Positions 9,798 through 52,298 of a stretch of DNA of 63,581 bases are shown here, in pieces. The stretch lies in IMG/VR virus record IMGVR_UViG_3300036830_000158, positions 1 through 63,581 of that record. One strand, 5' to 3'. The position numbers were made by a program, and so were the translations under genes. The number at the start of each line of letters is the position of its first letter. The stretch's first letter is position 1. The notes below the pieces were generated by a model. It did no database searches, was not told the DNA's origin, and saw only the letters and a list, made by a program, of their open reading frames with translations. The DNA is from a virus.

Positions 9798-11314
9798 TAC
9801 TGAACCTTCTCCCAACTATTGGGGTCCGCCGGATTGCCGCCCTTAAAGCGGTGTCCGTCTTCAATGTCGCCGATCCGTGGGCCACCGCCCTGCACTGGCG
9901 TGCCAGCAGGCGGCCCGGACGGCGCCGCCGTCTGCCCGCCCGGTTTCTGCCGATGCGCCTCGCGCGCCATCTCCGGCGCTTGCGTGGCAAGCATGGCCTC
10001 ATTGGCGAGCGTATCCAGCACGGCGCCATAGACATCCTGGTCCATCGCGGCGCTCAACTGTTCGTTGGCGTTTTTCTGCGCGTTGACGGTGACGGTCGAA
10101 TTGCCGCGGCCGATGATGGCGGCATAGGCGTTGATGACAGCCTGCGTTCTTGACCGCAAGATGGCCTGGGCGGGGTTAAGCGTAGCGTTCTGGTAGCCCT
10201 CCAGCAGCTTGTTCCACGGCAAGAATGAGGATCGCGGAACATTCTTGATCGCTTCACGGGCCGGCGGAAGGAATTGCTCCAATTCCTTGGTGGCGATCTC
10301 CATCTTGCGCTCTTGAACCGATCCGGTGCGCTCCGCCGCTTTCTTGCCGCCGAATTCGATCCTGCGATTGAAAAGCTCTTCCGGCGTCAGCCCGCCTTCT
10401 TCCTGCAACTTCTGCGAGAATTCGATCACCTTGGCGCGGTTCTTGTTGCCGACATCGCGCGTGCCGAGACCTTGGAGAACGTCGGTCTCGCCCATATTGT
10501 AGCGCTTGGCCAGATTCATCGCCGCCTCGTCGGACAAATAGCCCGAGCCTTGCGTGCCTGGCGGCAGCGGCGGCGTCACGTCCGTCGCCTCGCCGGTTTT
10601 CGGATCGTAGCGGAGCAGCCGCCCATCATACGTCTTCTCGATCTTTGGCAGGAACACGCCGCCGGTCAGCGCCGTGCGGCCTTCAGGCGAGGTCGGCTCG
10701 ATGCCGGCCGCCTTGAGGTTTCTGACCTCGGCTGTCGGTTCTTGCGCCTTGTACAGCTCCTGGATCGGCACGGCCTGCGAGATGATATTGTGCAAGAGCA
10801 GATCGTTCGGCGGCTGCTGGGAAAGCTGCTGGAACTGCTGCGGCGGGATATCGCCGTGATCGGCGGCGTCCTTCAGGCTCTCCTGCCAGCCTTGCGTCTT
10901 GGCGTCGCCCTGCAGGCCCATCACATACTGCGCCCGCCTGGCGTTGCGCATCATCTTCTGGTCGAACTGCTGCCGCTCGCCTTCGGCCATCTGGCCGCGC
11001 ACCGCCAGGACATGCGACTGCACTTCAGGATATCTCGACAGCTTGTCGACGGCGCCGGGCGCGTTCGGGTCCTTGCTGTATTCCGTGAGAGCGTTCTGCT
11101 CGCCCCGCTGCTGAGAAAGCTGCAGCTGGATCAGACTATTACGCTGCGCCGCTTGCTGGCGCTCCATCGCCAGCCTTTGATCCTCGATCCCCATCGAATG
11201 CCGGGCCTGCTCTTCGGCGAGTTGCTCGCGTCTGAGCTGCGCGGCCATCGCAAACGGTCGCGCGATATCGATCGTCGGCGACTGGACGCCGAGGGCGACG
11301 GAATAATCGGCCAT
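9797..11314 (-). CDS. Virion protein, probable DNA-ejection component
   Basis: 505 aa. A long Gln/Arg/Glu-rich helical N-terminus (residues about 20-110) is followed by a mixed region, and the C-terminal end GDIEDGHRFKGGNPADPNSW is a short module that recurs at the C-termini of many podophage ejection and virion proteins. It sits between the gp7-like gene and the 717-aa protein, matching the ejection-protein cluster. Confidence 0.7.
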   Translation of the reverse strand: MADYSVALGVQSPTIDIARPFAMAAQLRREQLAEEQARHSMGIEDQRLAMERQQAAQRNSLIQLQLSQQRGEQNALTEYSKDPNAPGAVDKLSRYPEVQSHVLAVRGQMAEGERQQFDQKMMRNARRAQYVMGLQGDAKTQGWQESLKDAADHGDIPPQQFQQLSQQPPNDLLLHNIISQAVPIQELYKAQEPTAEVRNLKAAGIEPTSPEGRTALTGGVFLPKIEKTYDGRLLRYDPKTGEATDVTPPLPPGTQGSGYLSDEAAMNLAKRYNMGETDVLQGLGTRDVGNKNRAKVIEFSQKLQEEGGLTPEELFNRRIEFGGKKAAERTGSVQERKMEIATKELEQFLPPAREAIKNVPRSSFLPWNKLLEGYQNATLNPAQAILRSRTQAVINAYAAIIGRGNSTVTVNAQKNANEQLSAAMDQDVYGAVLDTLANEAMLATQAPEMAREAHRQKPGGQTAAPSGPPAGTPVQGGGPRIGDIEDGHRFKGGNPADPNSWEKVQ

Positions 11315-11324
11315 GGTCGACCTC

Positions 11325-11972
11325 CTACATCGTCACCGGCACAGAGCCGGTCATCATGGTTGGATTGGCGAAGGACGCCGGCGGCGAATAGGCGCTGGTT
11401 GATGCCGGGTTCTGGTTGAGCAGGTTGTAAAGCATCAGATTGTTGGCGGTCCCGCTGAGGCTGGAGTTGAGCGCGTTCGCCGATCCAACCAGCCCAGAGG
11501 CCGTCGCCTGACCGGCATTGCCGATCTGATTGCCTTGGCCAGCGGCGGCGTTCTGGCCGATGCCGGCGAGCTGCAAGAGCTTGTTCGCATAGTTCTGGAA
11601 ATTCTGCGTCGCCATGCCTTGTCCGTAACCGACAAGATCGCGCGCATTGTTGCCGGACAACAGCTGCCCTTTGGCCGCGTTCGAGAATTCGAGCGCGCGC
11701 TGGCCCTCGCCAAAGGCGAACTGATAGTCGGGCGAGTTCTTGAACGCATCGAGTGCGGCGGCGTTGAACGGCGTCGTCGGCTGGCCGTCCGGGCCGATGC
11801 CGTAGAGCTGACCGAGCGTTGCGATCGCGCCGGTCCCGGCATTGGTGAACGGGGCTTCGAGCGCGGCGGCTTTGTTGGCTGCCTTGGTTTGCGTCGACGC
11901 CGCTTTGTTGGCGGCAAAGATGGACGCGCCACCGCCGATCACGGCGGAGCCGATAGTCGCGCCGATTGGCAT
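11325..11972 (-). CDS. P22 gp7-like DNA-injection protein
   Basis: 215 aa. The N-terminus (IGATIGSAVIGGGASIFAA) is a Gly/Ala hydrophobic helix. The core shows the signature of phage DNA-transfer proteins: LDAFKNSPDYQFAFGEGQRA, then AAKGQLLSGNN and LVGYGQGMATQNFQNY. It is likely packaged inside the capsid and ejected with the DNA. Confidence 0.8.
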   Translation of the reverse strand: MPIGATIGSAVIGGGASIFAANKAASTQTKAANKAAALEAPFTNAGTGAIATLGQLYGIGPDGQPTTPFNAAALDAFKNSPDYQFAFGEGQRALEFSNAAKGQLLSGNNARDLVGYGQGMATQNFQNYANKLLQLAGIGQNAAAGQGNQIGNAGQATASGLVGSANALNSSLSGTANNLMLYNLLNQNPASTSAYSPPASFANPTMMTGSVPVTM

Positions 11973-12002
11973 GATCAGTTCATCCTTAAATGATGACGGC
12001 CG

Positions 12003-12773
12003 TCAGTGCAGTTCTCTGACGACGGGAACGAAGAAATCGTCCTTGCCCTTGGCCTTGACGACGACCGCGTTGCCGATATCGAGGGTGACCGGGTCGCGGC
12101 ACATGATGGACATCGGCACATAGCCGGCCATGGCTGCAAATCGGTTGTAGAAGATCACCGCCTTATCGAGCTGCCCGCCCAGCAGCATTTCGACGGCGGC
12201 GCCGACATAACGGTCATGGATGTTGTCGTCAGGATGTTGCGGCTCCTTGCGGCCGCGCAGAGCGAATTCGGCCGCAAGCCGTTCATGGAACCAGGTCCCA
12301 CGGTCATTGAGGCCTGGGGCGGTGCGAATCCAGTCCTGAACGGTGAGGGCATGGATATCGGCCGGGATCGGCTGGCCGTCGCTGGTCCACCCAGTCGGAT
12401 TGGTGAACTGATAGACGCCGTGGATTGCTCTGGCGAGCGCCCTGGCGGCGATATTGCCCTTCGGACAGCGGGTCATCAATTCCATTGCCGGCGTGCGGCA
12501 GAACATCCATTTCAGGCAGCCCTGAGCGAATTCAAGCGTCCAGGCGCCTCGTCCCTCCGATAGCACCATGGTGTGCGCTTCGTAGATCCCTCTCTGCAGA
12601 TGCGCGAACAGCATGACGCCGTGCGCGCCGGCAAGCGCGATGTTGGCGGAATCGGCCACGGCCGGCGTCAGATCAAGGTCACGATCCGGGGTCGGATTGA
12701 CCCAGGCGCGAATATCGGGATGGTTGGCGATCGCATTGATGCGTTCCGGCGAAACGGTGCGCTCGATGTTCAT
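12003..12773 (-). CDS. Phage protein with possible acetyltransferase (GNAT-like) fold
   Basis: 256 aa. The N-terminal two thirds (SANIALAGAHGVMLFAHLQR, then GIYEAHTMVLSEGRGAWTLE) resemble GNAT-like proteins often encoded next to podophage gp10 genes. A catalytic assignment is not possible by eye. Its start overlaps the stop of the 148-aa gene (ATGA at 12770), so the two are translationally coupled. Confidence 0.55.
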   Translation of the reverse strand: MNIERTVSPERINAIANHPDIRAWVNPTPDRDLDLTPAVADSANIALAGAHGVMLFAHLQRGIYEAHTMVLSEGRGAWTLEFAQGCLKWMFCRTPAMELMTRCPKGNIAARALARAIHGVYQFTNPTGWTSDGQPIPADIHALTVQDWIRTAPGLNDRGTWFHERLAAEFALRGRKEPQHPDDNIHDRYVGAAVEMLLGGQLDKAVIFYNRFAAMAGYVPMSIMCRDPVTLDIGNAVVVKAKGKDDFFVPVVRELH

Positions 12774-45356: not shown

Positions 45357-45568
45357 CCAAAACCGTCCTTGGCGAGCAGATCGCGGAAATCGAGCGCGAG
45401 CTGGCGCTGAGGCGGTCCGTCTACCCGAAATGGGTTCAGACCGGAAAGCTCAGCCAGGCGCTCGCCGACCGGCAAGTCGCCTGCATGGAAGGGACGCTGC
45501 GGACATTGCGGTGGCTCGAAAAACACGAAGTCAGGATCAAGCAGATGCTCAAGGAAACGCAGCCATGA
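45353..45568 (+). CDS. Small coiled-coil protein before RecT
   Basis: 71 aa from the GTG at 45353, coupled to both neighbours by 4-base overlaps. Mostly helix (LGEQIAEIERELALRRSVYP). A partner of the exonuclease or RecT is possible. Confidence 0.5.
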   Translation: MTKTVLGEQIAEIERELALRRSVYPKWVQTGKLSQALADRQVACMEGTLRTLRWLEKHEVRIKQMLKETQP

Positions 45569-46737
45569 ACCAGATCACAACTCAGGCCCAGGCAGAGCGG
45601 CGCGTCTCGCCGGTTGAGGCCTATACGGCCCAGGTCATCGGCGATGAAATCACAAGCGCGGAGTTGTTCCGAGCGCTGCCGTCGCATATTCCGCCAGAAC
45701 GTTTCAAGCGCAACCTCATCAATGCGCTGATGCAGAACCCTGACATGCTGAAATATGACCCACGCCTTGTTTATCGTGAGGTTTCCAAGGCCGCCGCACT
45801 CGGGCTTCTACTCGATCCGCAGCTTGGCGAGGCCTACATCGTGCCGGTCTGGAACGCCAAAGCTGGGCGGCCGGAGCCGCAATTGCGCGTCGGCTACCGC
45901 GGCATCATCAAGCTCGGCCGGCAGTCAGGCGAAATTACAGCGATCTATGCGCACGAGGTTCATGAAAACGATGAGATCGATTGTGATCTCGGTGTTGATA
46001 AGCGCCTGGTCCATAAGCCGCTTCTGTTCGGTGACCGTGGCCGTGTTGTCGGCTATTATGCCGTCGCCAAGTTCAAGGATGGCGAGGCTGATTTCGAGCC
46101 GATGACGCTTGATCAGATCCACGCCATTCGCGATAAATCCGATGGCTGGCGGGCATTCAAGGCTGGCAAGATCAAGTCGACGCCATGGTCGACGGATGAA
46201 GGCGAGATGGCCAAGAAGACGGTCATCAAGCGACTTTGCAAGCGCATCCCGCAGTCTCCGGACTTGGCGACGGCGCTCAGTCTGGAGAATGACGCCAATC
46301 CAATCGAGCCGACGCGCATAATCAATCTCAATGCCGGCCGTCCATTGGCTTCGCAGACACGCGCCATCGAATCCCGTCTCGACCAATTCGCCGCCGCCGG
46401 CGACCAGTCCCCCCAGCATCAGCCAGCCGAGGATGCGCACCCTCAGTCGGCTGATGAGCCCGAGGCCTTCACAGCTCCCGCTGAGGCCGACGGCGCGCCC
46501 GCGTCATCTGAAAACTCAGCAACAGATCCTGGGACTGAGGATGACGCGGGCGCTCCCCTGCCGGAAAAGATTGTCGTTGCGATGGAGATGGGACGAGGCG
46601 CTCGCCGCAGCGGCTTGCCGCGCGAGACGCCGCGCACGCTGCAATACAAATCCAAGCAGGATGAGGCCGCCGCGTTCCGGCGCGGCTGGGATGAAGAGAA
46701 CCTGGAAATCCAGGCCGAAGACGGTGGCACGGTGTGA
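45565..46737 (+). CDS. recT: RecT single-strand annealing protein
   Basis: 390 aa from the ATG at 45565. The RecT core is strong: HIPPERFKRNLINALMQNPD, VYREVSKAAALGLLLDPQLG, EAYIVPVW, LRVGYRGIIKLGRQSGEITA, and FEPMTLDQIHAIRDKSDGWR. An acidic, low-complexity C-terminus (about residues 275-350) ends in a conserved RGWDEENL segment. It binds resected DNA and anneals it to homologous single strands. Confidence 0.9.
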   Translation: MNQITTQAQAERRVSPVEAYTAQVIGDEITSAELFRALPSHIPPERFKRNLINALMQNPDMLKYDPRLVYREVSKAAALGLLLDPQLGEAYIVPVWNAKAGRPEPQLRVGYRGIIKLGRQSGEITAIYAHEVHENDEIDCDLGVDKRLVHKPLLFGDRGRVVGYYAVAKFKDGEADFEPMTLDQIHAIRDKSDGWRAFKAGKIKSTPWSTDEGEMAKKTVIKRLCKRIPQSPDLATALSLENDANPIEPTRIINLNAGRPLASQTRAIESRLDQFAAAGDQSPQHQPAEDAHPQSADEPEAFTAPAEADGAPASSENSATDPGTEDDAGAPLPEKIVVAMEMGRGARRSGLPRETPRTLQYKSKQDEAAAFRRGWDEENLEIQAEDGGTV

Positions 46738-48360: not shown

Positions 48361-48513
48361 ATGAACTTCCCGCGCCGGAAGAGCGGGCGGGCCGGGGCGT
48401 CCAGACCAAGGGACGATGCGGAGGTGCGGGGAAAGAAAACGCACCGCAAATCGCGCCTGAGCCGCGAGGAATACAGCGCCCTCGCGGGGACCCCGGCAAC
48501 TTTATGGAGGTGA
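48361..48513 (+). CDS. Small Arg-rich protein
   Basis: 50 aa from the ATG at 48361 (MNFPRRKSGRAGASRPRDDA), basic throughout, ending GTPATLWR. Its last codons are the repeat at 48493-48510, so its end overlaps the next ribosome-binding site. Confidence 0.4.
   Translation: MNFPRRKSGRAGASRPRDDAEVRGKKTHRKSRLSREEYSALAGTPATLWR
48493..48510 (+). repeat. Duplicated ribosome-binding leader, copy 1
   Basis: CCGGCAACTTTATGGAGG occurs here and again, identically, at 49076-49093. Each copy supplies the GGAGG Shine-Dalgarno sequence 8-12 bases before a start codon (48522 and 49103). Perfect identity over 18 bases around two unrelated genes suggests recent copying or a conserved translational control element. 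Confidence 0.75.
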
Positions 48514-48521
48514 GAAGCATC

Positions 48522-49067
48522 ATGGAGCGAGAATTCCCTTTGCAATGGCCGGCGAGCCAGCCACGGACCGAGCGCAGGGACCCCGGCAAGTTTCAGCGCT
48601 CACTAAACGATTCTCGTGTCCATCTAATCAAGCAGGTTCAATTGGCAGGAGGCTCCGATATTCTGATCTCCTCCAACTATGGCGGTCTCAGCGGCAAGTC
48701 TCCAGCCGATCCGGGCGTCGCGGTTTATTTCAACCGCCGCAATAAGCGGCTCGCAATGGGCTGCGACCGCTGGCGCCTGGTTGCTCACAATCTGACCGCG
48801 CTCGGCAACAGCATAGAGGCAATGCGCGGCATCGACCGCTGGGGCTGCAGCCATTTGATGGAACAGGCCTTTTCGGCATTTGAGGCGCTTCCCGCGCCCG
48901 GATGGCGACAGGTGCTTCAATTAATCGGGGGAAGGCCGTCCCTTGAAGATGCCGAGGCCAGCTACCGGGCGCTGGTCAAGAAGCATCACCCCGATGCAGG
49001 AGGCAACCAGGAGCAGTTCCTGCGGATTCAGAAGGCCGTCGAAGACGCCAGGCGGGAGTTGAATTGA
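48522..49067 (+). CDS. Phage protein with C-terminal J-domain
   Basis: 181 aa from the ATG at 48522. The last 40 residues, AEASYRALVKKHHPDAGGNQ then EQFLRIQKAVEDAR, form a J-domain end with the HPD motif that stimulates DnaK. The first 140 residues (ISSNYGGLSGKSPADPGVAV, YFNRRNKRLAMGCDRWRLVA) form a conserved phage domain of unknown function. It may recruit the host Hsp70 chaperone. Confidence 0.7.
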   Translation: MEREFPLQWPASQPRTERRDPGKFQRSLNDSRVHLIKQVQLAGGSDILISSNYGGLSGKSPADPGVAVYFNRRNKRLAMGCDRWRLVAHNLTALGNSIEAMRGIDRWGCSHLMEQAFSAFEALPAPGWRQVLQLIGGRPSLEDAEASYRALVKKHHPDAGGNQEQFLRIQKAVEDARRELN

Positions 49068-49102: not shown

Positions 49103-49555
49103 ATGGGATACAGCACAAGCTTTGAGGGCGTCATTAAATTCAGCCGCGATCTTACTGCCGCTGAATTGCGTGAGATCAATGAGATCCTTGAGATTGACGA
49201 TGTCGCCGAACACGCCAAGAGCATCGGCTTCATAGCGACGAAAGAGGATATGTTCAGTTGGCTGGCTCTTCGTCTCGCCAAGGATTTCACAGGCCTTGAA
49301 TGGGATGGGAGCGAAAAAACCTACGGCATGATCACGGCGCTCAACGTCATCATGCAGGTGATCAAGCGGAAGATCCAAGACCTGTCATTTAGCGGTCGAA
49401 TGACGGCCCAGGGTGAAGAGGTCGGGGATATCTGGGGCATTGAAGTATCTGATGGGAAGGCGGTCCGCACTGAGCTGAAAAAGCCGGCCATGATGAAATG
49501 CCCTCGATGCCGTGAATGGTTCAGAACCGAAGATGCCGAAGAACGCTCAGAATAG
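49103..49555 (+). CDS. Hypothetical protein with C-terminal CxxC
   Basis: 150 aa from the ATG at 49103 (MGYSTSFEGVIKFSRDLTAA), with a copied Shine-Dalgarno leader before it. The opening resembles a widespread small phage family. It ends KCPRCREWFRTEDAEERSE, a lone CxxC that could bind zinc in a dimer. Function unknown. Confidence 0.6.
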   Translation: MGYSTSFEGVIKFSRDLTAAELREINEILEIDDVAEHAKSIGFIATKEDMFSWLALRLAKDFTGLEWDGSEKTYGMITALNVIMQVIKRKIQDLSFSGRMTAQGEEVGDIWGIEVSDGKAVRTELKKPAMMKCPRCREWFRTEDAEERSE

Positions 49556-49556
49556 C

Positions 49557-49631
49557 CGCACCGCGTCGCCCCGCTACGCAGCGCCACGCTTCGCCACGCC
49601 TCGCGGCGCTTCGCATCGCATCGCAACGTCA
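49557..49631 (+). repeat. CGCNN pentamer tract 1
   Basis: Fourteen consecutive CGCNN units (49557-49626) and one CGTCA, with the two variable bases changing freely. It fills the gap between the 150-aa gene and the 201-aa gene. Two further tracts follow in the next two gaps (50261-50330, 50860-50929). Such strict 5-nt phase without a conserved protein reading looks like a DNA- or RNA-level element. Confidence 0.85.
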
Positions 49632-49650
49632 ATAAAAAGGAAGGCCGCAT

Positions 49651-50256
49651 ATGTCACTGACGACCGTTACAGCCCAGCTCAAATCGGTTTCGCCCTATTC
49701 GCAGAGTAAGCATTATCAGGTCGATCCTCTTCAGGGGGAATCGAAGGACGACCATTACCGCCGCACCTGGCGCAATCATATGCATTGCGATCAGGACGGG
49801 CAGGTTTTCATTCCCCCGAACGCATTCAAGAATGCGGTCGCCGAAGCCGCGAAGTTCTTGTCGATCTCGGTCCCCGGCGGTGGCAAGGCGAAATATACCA
49901 AACATTTCGAGGCCGGGATTCTTGTGATCAAGCCGGTCTTGCTGGGTGTCCACAAAGACAGCGTCGAATGTGAAAATCTGTTCCTTCCCAGCGACGGGCG
50001 GCGAGGCGGCGGCAGCCGTGTCAATAAGTACTATCCCTTCATTCCGGATTGGACGGCTGCGGTCGAATTTCTCATCACGGATGAAACCGTGCTGCAAAGC
50101 TCCGTCGTGGATAAAGACCGCACCATTTTCGAAATCGTGCTGGAGGCCACCGGGAAGCTGATCGGGATCGGCCGCTTCCGTCCGCGAAACAACGGCTATT
50201 ATGGCCGGTTCAAAATCGAAACGCTTGAGATCAGCCGCATGGCTATAGCTGCTTAA
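49651..50256 (+). CDS. Conserved phage protein, possible RAMP/Cas7-like fold
   Basis: 201 aa. Conserved blocks: TVTAQLKSVSPYSQSKHYQV, FIPPNAFKNAVAEAAKFLSI, GGKAKYTKHFEAGILV, LFLPSDGRRGGGSRVNKYYP and the Gly-rich IGIGRFRPRNNGYYGRFKIE. The proline-led helix and the late Gly-rich loop recall RAMP proteins, where the helix follows a PG and the loop contacts RNA. This is only a resemblance; no family assignment is claimed. It stands between two pentamer tracts with an AAGGA site before its start. Confidence 0.6.
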   Translation: MSLTTVTAQLKSVSPYSQSKHYQVDPLQGESKDDHYRRTWRNHMHCDQDGQVFIPPNAFKNAVAEAAKFLSISVPGGGKAKYTKHFEAGILVIKPVLLGVHKDSVECENLFLPSDGRRGGGSRVNKYYPFIPDWTAAVEFLITDETVLQSSVVDKDRTIFEIVLEATGKLIGIGRFRPRNNGYYGRFKIETLEISRMAIAA

Positions 50257-50260
50257 TCCG

Positions 50261-50330
50261 CGCAGCGCTACGCGCCGCTCCGCGCCGTGGCGCGCCGCCC
50301 TGCCACGCATCGCGCCGCAACGCAACGAAT
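50261..50330 (+). repeat. CGCNN pentamer tract 2
   Basis: Fourteen 5-nt units between the 201-aa gene stop and the next start; 11 are CGCNN and the others (CGTGG, TGCCA, CGAAT) differ by one base. The last unit overlaps the ATG of the following gene. Confidence 0.8.
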
Positions 50331-50850
50331 GAGTACAGAAATGTTGAAGCCGCCGGAATTCCGCCAATCCAGGGAAGCGCAGATCATCTCGGAACTGTTT
50401 CGAGATATCGAGCAGAAGGACGGCGGCCTGATCACATGGCGAGAACTCTGTTCGGCGACAGGCAAGGGCCGGGCTGAACTGAAAAGCCCGATCCAGACGG
50501 CCATTCGCCGGATGCGCAAAGACCACGGGCTCGTCATCGAGAATGACCGCGACCTTGGCTACCGGCTGAAGGCCAACAATCGTCTGGTGGGGTCGGGCCG
50601 GACCGCGCTGGAAAGATCCAGGCGGATTGAAAAAGTTGGCCTGGAAAAGATGGATTGCTGCGAGCTGGCCAAGCTGTCGATGGAAGAGAAGGCCGAGCAC
50701 ATGGTGGTCAAATCCGCGATTCAGCTCGGCTTGATGACCAAGCGCTCTCGCGTGCGCAGCAGTCTGACGCAGATGGTCATCCGCAAGCACAACGCGCTGA
50801 CCGAGCAGGAAATGCTGCAAGCCATCGTCGAAAGGCTGGGGCAGAAATGA
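50329..50850 (+). CDS. Hypothetical protein with winged-helix-like part
   Basis: 173 aa from the ATG at 50329 (MSTEMLKPPEFRQSREAQII). Residues about 25-85 (LITWRELCSATGKGRAELKS, IQTAIRRMRKDHGLVIENDR) look like a DNA-binding wHTH. It lies between pentamer tracts 2 and 3, so it could be their binding protein, but nothing shows this. Confidence 0.55.
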   Translation: MSTEMLKPPEFRQSREAQIISELFRDIEQKDGGLITWRELCSATGKGRAELKSPIQTAIRRMRKDHGLVIENDRDLGYRLKANNRLVGSGRTALERSRRIEKVGLEKMDCCELAKLSMEEKAEHMVVKSAIQLGLMTKRSRVRSSLTQMVIRKHNALTEQEMLQAIVERLGQK

Positions 50851-50859
50851 GTGGTTTAT

Positions 50860-50929
50860 CGCCGCGCCCCGCATCGCATCGCGGCGCTCCGCCCCGCCCC
50901 GCCACGCATCGCAACGCACCTGTACGCCC
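50860..50929 (+). repeat. CGCNN pentamer tract 3
   Basis: Twelve consecutive CGCNN units (50860-50919), then CTGTA and a final CGCCC, upstream of the excisionase-like gene. Confidence 0.85.
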
Positions 50930-50940
50930 ATGAGTAAGCC

Positions 50941-51210
50941 ATGAACGAGCATGTCAAGCCCCGCAATGTTCTTCCGGCCTCGCTGCCGCCGCGGGGCTTG
51001 AGGCGTGTGGAGGCGGCGGCATATGTCGGGGTCTCCCCGAGTACTTTCGATGAAATGATCCGCGACGGGTTCATGCCTACCCCGAAGCGGTTCCGCGGCT
51101 GCATTATTTGGGACCGCATGGCATTGGACGAAGCCTTCACTTGTCTTCCTGACAGGGAAGGCGCAAAACCGGCCTCGACCAATCCGTGGGACGCCATGAG
51201 CAATGTTTAA
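50941..51210 (+). CDS. Excisionase / AlpA-like HTH protein
   Basis: 89 aa with a MerR-type short HTH: LRRVEAAAYVGVSPSTFDEM, IRDGFMPTPKRFRGCIIWDR. Proteins of this type direct the integrase toward excision. Its stop overlaps the integrase start (TAATG), so both are made together. Confidence 0.75.
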   Translation: MNEHVKPRNVLPASLPPRGLRRVEAAAYVGVSPSTFDEMIRDGFMPTPKRFRGCIIWDRMALDEAFTCLPDREGAKPASTNPWDAMSNV

Positions 51211-52298
51211 TGGTTAGGGTGCGGCTCAAATATGTTATCGCCGATGTTGATCGGCACGGGAACGTTCGCTATTATTTTCGCCGTCGCGGACGCAAGGGCA
51301 AACTCCGATTGCCTGGCCTGCCTGGCTCCGATGAGTTCAACGCGGCCCATGCCGCCGCTCTAGCAGGCAGGCCGCCGCCGGTCAAAATTACTCAACCGCT
51401 TTTAGAGCGCGCACCGCTCGGGACGCTTGAATGGCTCCGCAAGAGCTATTTCTCTTCCATCGAGTTCGGTGGGCTTTCTTCTTATACGCAGCGCGACCGC
51501 CGGAATATTCTGAAGGCGATTTGCGCCGAAACCCTCTCGCCCCATGATCCAACGCGCATTGGCGACCTGCCCTTCGTGCAGATGTCGGAAAAGAGCGTTC
51601 GGATGCTCCGCAACCGCAAGAAAGACGCCCCGAACGCAGCGAACAATTGGGTCAGCGCCCTGAGCACTCTCTTCAAATGGGCAATCGAGGAGAACCTTGC
51701 CGAAGTCAATCCGGCGCGCGACGTGCCGAAAATCGGAATATCGACTGAAGGCTATCATACCTGGGCAACCGAGGAGATCAAACAATACGAGGCTGTCCAC
51801 CAGATAGGAACCCAGGCGCGTCTCGCCCTCGCGCTGCTCGCCTATACCGGGCTGCGTCGAAGCGATGTCATCCGCATTGGCCCCCAGCACGTCGATGCTG
51901 ATGGCGCGCTGGTCCTCAAGCCTCAGAAGACGAAGAAGACTAACGTAACCGTCCATGTGCCGATTTTGCCGGAGCTGCAAAAAGTGATCTTGGCAACGCG
52001 CTGTGGACATCTCACATATCTGACCAGCGAATGGGACCGGCCATGGTCCGCGGCGGGCTTTTCGTCTCGTTTCAAGCAATGGTGTAAGGAGGCCAAGCTG
52101 GGGCATTGCAGCGCTCATGGCCTGCGAAAAGCTGGGGCCTGTTTAGCTGCCGAGAATGGTGCGACAGAACAGCAAATGATGGCAATTTTTGGCTGGAAAA
52201 CAGCCAGCATGGCGAGCAAATATACGCGGGCCGCGAACCGCAAAAAGATCGCTGGCGCAAGCATCCATTTGCTCTCGAAAAGGCGGAACGAGACTTGA
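51210..52298 (+). CDS. int: Tyrosine integrase
   Basis: 362 aa from the ATG at 51210. A small N-terminal arm-binding domain (MVRVRLKYVIADVDRHGN) and a core-binding helical domain come first. The catalytic domain has Arg in YTGLRRSDVIRI, a Lys-containing turn, then HGLRKAGACLAAENGATEQQ and the closing GWKTASMASKYTRAA with the nucleophilic Tyr. It inserts the phage at a host attachment site. Xis lies directly upstream and a candidate attP directly downstream. Confidence 0.9.
   Translation: MVRVRLKYVIADVDRHGNVRYYFRRRGRKGKLRLPGLPGSDEFNAAHAAALAGRPPPVKITQPLLERAPLGTLEWLRKSYFSSIEFGGLSSYTQRDRRNILKAICAETLSPHDPTRIGDLPFVQMSEKSVRMLRNRKKDAPNAANNWVSALSTLFKWAIEENLAEVNPARDVPKIGISTEGYHTWATEEIKQYEAVHQIGTQARLALALLAYTGLRRSDVIRIGPQHVDADGALVLKPQKTKKTNVTVHVPILPELQKVILATRCGHLTYLTSEWDRPWSAAGFSSRFKQWCKEAKLGHCSAHGLRKAGACLAAENGATEQQMMAIFGWKTASMASKYTRAANRKKIAGASIHLLSKRRNET

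Follow-up and report, generated by a model that had tools for sequence, protein, structure and literature searches.

A probable VIPR locus with three CGC-type guide-RNA arrays in the genome of a temperate phage

Introduction

VIPR (Viral Interference Programmable Repeat) systems were described in 2026 in Escherichia phage SUSP1 and a Pseudomonas fulva prophage (Vipr, vap1 and vrRNAs; PMC13142463; PDB 36pp). As presented in the preprint, a VIPR system is composed of the phage-encoded RAMP-like protein Vipr, the vap gene and vrRNAs; the systems are mostly phage-encoded, and vipr and vap form the minimal locus (PMC13142463). The vrRNAs are about 100 nt long, co-purify with Vipr and silence their targets, and they contain 9-16 pentamers, each made of a constant GGY triplet and a hypervariable dinucleotide, NN. 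Double-stranded DNA is bound through the NN pairs, one target base being left unread between successive pairs, and the natural guides are directed against rival phages, prophages and further VIPR systems (PMC13142463). The vrRNAs of the SUSP1 clade carry an invariable, folded 3' tail, and according to the preprint, which refers to its fig. S17, all seven VIPR types use GGY/NN "or a related consensus" (PMC13142463).

We analyzed a stretch of viral DNA of 63,581 nucleotides (IMG/VR record IMGVR_UViG_3300036830_000158, positions 1 to 63,581), hereafter called the window. A first-pass annotation of its sequence had drawn attention to three tracts of CGCNN pentamers and knew of no described element of this form. 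That statement no longer holds, as the VIPR guide RNAs described in 2026 have this form with GGY in place of CGC (PMC13142463). We consider it very probable that region 49557-50930 is a VIPR locus of a temperate phage, containing three guide-RNA arrays whose constant triplet is CGC. As the motif is given as GGY in the main text of the preprint, we file the locus as a variant relative to it (PMC13142463).

Results

Three CGCNN tracts in the window

Our recount of the tracts agrees with the coordinates and unit numbers of the first-pass annotation. They form part of a region (49557-50930) whose elements follow one another as array-vipr-array-vap-array on a single strand. The features of the locus and its neighbours are the following:

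45559-46737, + strand: RecT-like annealing protein, upstream of the locus (phrog_148, E=4e-65)
49557-49631, + strand: array 1, vrRNA-like guide, 5' of vipr and on the same strand (14/15 CGCNN units); NN: AC GT CC TA AG CA TT CA CT GG TT AT AT AA
49651-50256, + strand: vipr, RAMP-like protein of 201 aa, phrog_4652 (profile, hhalign and PHROGs matches)
50261-50330, + strand: array 2, vrRNA-like guide, between vipr and vap, its end overlapping the vap start codon (11/14 CGCNN units, three imperfect); NN: AG TA GC TC GC GG GC CC CA AT GC AA AA
50329-50850, + strand: vap (Vipr-accessory), small winged-helix-like protein of 173 aa (family profile)
50860-50929, + strand: array 3, vrRNA-like guide, 3' of vap (13/14 CGCNN units); NN: CG CC AT AT GG TC CC CC CA AT AA AC
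50941-51210, + strand: excisionase/regulator-like gene that immediately follows the locus (phrog_25900, phrog_66)
51186-52298, + strand: tyrosine integrase (PF00589, E=4e-14; phrog_1, E=1e-40)

Upstream of the locus, region 48504-49067 encodes a phage protein (phrog_9210) whose C-terminal segment is DnaJ-like, and the protein encoded just 5' of array 1 (49103-49555) is weakly similar to DUF6205/phrog_38666.

When both strands of the window were scanned, the sole other run scoring at least 4 was a single 4-unit run. The net scores of the tracts are 14, 12 and 9, and the best scores in 60 third-order Markov simulations of the whole window were 3-6, never above 6. The training sequence contained the tracts themselves, which makes this simulation conservative.

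Open reading frames cross the tracts (e.g., 49512-49709 and 50287-50850), as would be the case if the tracts were translated into low-complexity peptides of overlapping genes. Enumeration showed, however, that a stop codon is impossible in any forward frame of a CGCNN run, and because such runs cannot hold forward stops, the open frames are no evidence of coding. Moreover, array lengths are independent of multiples of three in the wider collection described below, where the NN positions are hypervariable. We therefore give the translated-peptide explanation almost no weight and agree with the earlier description of the tracts as intergenic and non-coding.

The genes at 49651-50256 and 50329-50850

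A profile of 42 homologues of the 49651-50256 product, compared with solved structures, matched PDB 36pp, "SUSP1 Vipr protein" (E=2.2e-13), and the next structure was CRISPR Csm5 at E=0.3. Alignment of SUSP1 vipr with the family profile by hhalign gave E=4.4e-13, with 22% identity over the alignment. In PHROGs the gene corresponds to phrog_4652 (unknown function; E=7e-12), and it is without a match in Pfam. Judged from these similarities, 49651-50256 encodes a Vipr homologue. The family has a conserved glycine-rich motif, GIGRFRPxNxGYYGRF; the pattern search used a 9-row alignment, the diverse 42-row alignment being too varied. The nearest Vipr from a cellular genome (65% identity) lies on a contig assigned to Rhodospirillales.

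The vap family profile finds the gene adjoining SUSP1 vipr (E=2.8e-5), and hhalign between the vap family and this SUSP1 neighbour gave E=3e-4 with a probability of only 39%.

The locus resembles the SUSP1 and P. fulva systems in having a homologous Vipr, a related accessory gene beside it and pentamers with two free bases, as well as in general layout, in array length (15, 14 and 14 units), in the location of the arrays on the vipr strand and in its presence in a phage genome. It differs from them in its triplet, CGC instead of GGY, so that it is not SUSP1-type in the strict sense; its Vipr and vap proteins are distant from theirs, and its arrays are located before, between and after the genes, almost reaching the start codons, and lack a hairpin tail.

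The RAMP complexes of Class 1 CRISPR-Cas systems (Cas7, Csm/Cmr) likewise place a RAMP-like protein along a guide RNA whose pairing is periodically interrupted. However, their guide is contiguous, whereas dinucleotides are used here, and the sequence similarity is weak, as the Csm5 match illustrates. Within the tracts, no long direct repeats with spacers of the CRISPR kind were found, and cas families were absent from the genes in and flanking the locus, where the matches were DnaJ-like, excisionase and integrase.

CGC arrays in other viral contigs

The first-pass annotation had proposed a scan for CGCNN runs elsewhere, and such runs do recur: at least 118 stretches in 2.9 million viral contigs matched a pattern of nine exact CGCNN units. 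Among the matches listed, 307 arrays with diverse NN were read across 97 loci; the arrays of one locus nearly always share a strand, are commonly 9-14 units long, frequently end in CGCAA CGCAA and frequently stop just before a start codon. Homologues of the 49651-50256 gene are present beside the arrays in 61/100 loci among the matches listed, the vap family in 58/100, and at least one of the two families in 73/100.

Each of the 16 possible dinucleotides occurs 105-311 times at the NN positions of 262 distinct CGC arrays from related phages. The constant triplet is CGC in 3356 units, the commonest substitutes being CTC (125), CAC (99), TGC (65) and CGT (35). The NN positions are therefore near saturation while CGC is conserved, in line with the earlier remark that the period rather than the word is kept.

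Pure repeats also exist: L025:255-434 is a perfect (CGCTG)n of 36 copies, and L048 contains, on the - strand, a perfect (CGCCT)n of 24 copies. Both were set aside as perfect microsatellites that fit the pattern but are not VIPR-like arrays. Together with block duplications within some arrays (e.g., L037 and L122), they would fit the idea that the tracts are functionless, degenerate microsatellite expansions. Such an expansion does not explain why CGC is kept with NN near saturation in the functional set, nor the strict co-orientation and association with vipr and the perfect target matches that the code predicts (both below), and its probability appears negligible to us.

Arrays beside vipr genes and the diversity of the triplet

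For the reverse approach, Vipr similarity was the sole criterion for choosing 94 loci, and both strands were then scanned within 2.5 kb for arrays built on any of the 64 triplets. Pentamer arrays were detected in 64/94 loci, with the triplets GGC (28), CGC (25), GAC (7), GTT (2), CAC (1) and CTC (1); near-copies among the 94 loci make these counts partly non-independent. The array was on the vipr strand in 64 of the 64 array-bearing loci, including all 25 CGC loci. Arrays were found in 0/94 loci of a Markov control, and the finder recovered SUSP1's own GGT arrays, on the vipr strand. Since CGC-type and GGC/GGT-type arrays both occur beside Vipr, the published motif and that of the window are two states of one system.

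The vap family is present in 84/94 of these Vipr-chosen loci, and the arrays do recur in phages close to a wHTH-like gene. The first-pass annotation had noted that the 5-nt period is near half a turn of the B-DNA helix and had suggested a binding test with the wHTH-like protein next to the tracts. On this view the tracts would be a phased DNA element (operator or iteron), and the frequent adjacency of this gene speaks for that idea. Yet a DNA element offers no obvious reason for the strand bias, the layout is kept in related phages with other triplets, and the content of the NN positions matches targets (see below). Besides, the constant partner of the arrays is the Vipr/RAMP homologue encoded by 49651-50256, a gene that the annotation of the tracts had not mentioned. 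The arrays look like guide RNAs, and a phased DNA element seems to us extremely improbable.

As to the rarer triplets beside Vipr, GAC was found in L166, L168, L185, L195, L207, L208 and L215, GTT in L179 and L217, and CAC in L220; in each of these GAC, GTT and CAC loci the triplet ends in a pyrimidine.

In a tree of 143 Viprs (FastTree, many weak branches), in which the share of CGC was raised by the first CGCNN scan, the triplets cluster and about 15 changes are needed. The window Vipr falls in a well-supported group of eight, of which six have CGC arrays and two have no detected array. Positions 112, 113, 95, 179, 126 and 181 of the window Vipr differ between CGC and GGY Viprs, a difference that is confounded with ancestry.

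CGC arrays of related phages follow a one-base-skip code

We compared 227 distinct CGC arrays, both real and order-shuffled, with 4.5 Mb of phage DNA in which arrays were masked, using skips of 0-3 bases between the NN pairs. Scores of at least 17 were obtained for 5/227 real arrays at skip 1, compared with 2/1589 in the seven other sets (Fisher p=5e-4); scores of at least 20 were obtained twice at skip 1 and never otherwise. The CGC arrays of related phages thus obey the one-base-skip rule, which they share with the SUSP1 and P. fulva systems.

Units 1-11 of the guide at L125:1370-1479 (CG CC AG AA AA GG TA TA GG AG TT) correspond to the first two bases of the RPRNNGYYGRF codons, the most conserved motif of Vipr. 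This guide matches the vipr gene of L193 at 22/22 bases, in frame and with the skip on the wobble base, and its own vipr gene at 19/22. It also fits the vipr motif of L176 and L196; with three mismatches to its own gene, this is a case of VIPR against VIPR.

Units 2-13 of the L022 guide match a gene in L163 at 23/24 bases; this gene was called primase-helicase-like from its translation, the L163 fragment having no match in Pfam. A search of IMG/VR with the perfect 24-base L022 pattern detected two further contigs, both with the match in the homologous gene (KAGIWSDFASGE), where the skips fall on wobble positions at which the bases of the two contigs differ. For five comparable exact patterns taken from other guides, each specifying 20-22 bases, IMG/VR contained no match, which indicates the chance level for such exact matches.

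Among the 19 best skip-1 matches, in which true and chance matches are mixed, 12 have the skip at the third codon position of the longest frame that covers the match (p=0.007, computed against a flat one third without base-composition control by codon position). The target is read with a period of 3, which allows a guide directed at coding sequence to have its skipped bases at wobble positions. A 19/20 match of the L079/L097 guide to a helicase gene was not counted as confirmed, the perfect match being absent from IMG/VR.

When the 53 non-CGC arrays were compared with this 4.5 Mb of DNA, clear targets were not obtained, and these arrays hence provided no positive control for the skip rule. For the window arrays, exact one-skip patterns of 20-22 bases had no match in IMG/VR, array 3 had none in 385 genomes of one class with up to three mismatches allowed, and searches of each of the arrays 1-3 in some related records gave no targets.

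The target matches also bear on a regulatory role of the arrays. TRAP binds RNA sites made of spaced GAG/UAG triplets with 2-nt spacers; the tracts of the window resemble these sites in their constant triplets and 2-nt spacers, and many arrays end just before a start codon. They might accordingly be TRAP-like or CsrA-like regulatory RNAs, in which a ring protein binds spaced triplets in gene leaders and controls translation, with NN being uninformative. TRAP spacers carry no guide information, however, whereas NN matters here, as guides match vipr at 22/22 and the primase gene at 24/24 bases with a fixed one-base skip. Furthermore, tandem series of arrays also occur away from start codons, and the partner protein is a Vipr/RAMP homologue, to which TRAP is unrelated. 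We consider such a regulatory RNA very unlikely.

Ends of the guides and linkers between them

The 3' ends of 80/262 CGC arrays read ...CGCAACGCAA. A strong hairpin follows the array in 49/233 cases; compensatory changes were seen in a subset picked for hairpins, which is a biased choice. None of the three window arrays is followed by a clear hairpin tail, and they run nearly into the next start codon. In several phages, successive arrays follow each other at 14-35 nt with linkers that are conserved within the locus, which suggests that these arrays are cut from one precursor.

Fourteen CGC arrays are present on the - strand of L068 (about 10096-12660), most of them followed by an identical strong hairpin, CGGCCAGCCCC-GCGA-GGGGCTGGCACC. 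L110:4537-4932 and L044 (- strand, 2262-2714) contain short CGC arrays in series, unlike the longer arrays elsewhere; the spacers between them are either just 4 nt long (GCAA/GCGT) or consist of a conserved linker of 14 nt, CCCATCACTGGCCG.

Discussion

By analogy with the SUSP1 system of the preprint, each array of the window would give rise to a transcript that is coated by consecutive Vipr subunits, with one subunit on every 5-nt unit, to form a ribonucleoprotein (PMC13142463). The CGC triplet would serve as the protein-binding scaffold, and the exposed NN pairs would base-pair with double-stranded DNA in the order NN-skip-NN-skip. Such binding would be expected to silence genes of competing phages or prophages.

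The guide-RNA system of the 2026 preprint (PMC13142463) was here rediscovered independently from raw sequence, and our results indicate that the VIPR code also operates with another scaffold triplet. Many phage contigs that carry CGC arrays thereby become readable, with the guides naming genes of rival phages. Differing triplets within one protein family offer a direct route to the residues responsible for triplet recognition; they might also yield programmable DNA-binding tools that are orthogonal to one another and about 20 kD in size.

VIPR may more generally constitute a set of orthogonal codes, a proposal for which we see the case as evenly balanced. The triplet would have switched repeatedly (GGC, GGT, CGC, GAC, GTT, CAC) within one Vipr/Vap family, with the Vipr of each lineage reading only its own guides; guides would target the vipr genes of other phages, with a few mismatches protecting the phage's own vipr, and the window would be a member with the CGC code.

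A distant Vipr homologue is encoded on Azospirillum oryzae plasmid NZ_CP054617 (L228; 567376-568140), where no array was detected. Genes for a DNA methyltransferase and a DEAD-box helicase are located downstream of it, and this locus may be a defence-type VIPR.
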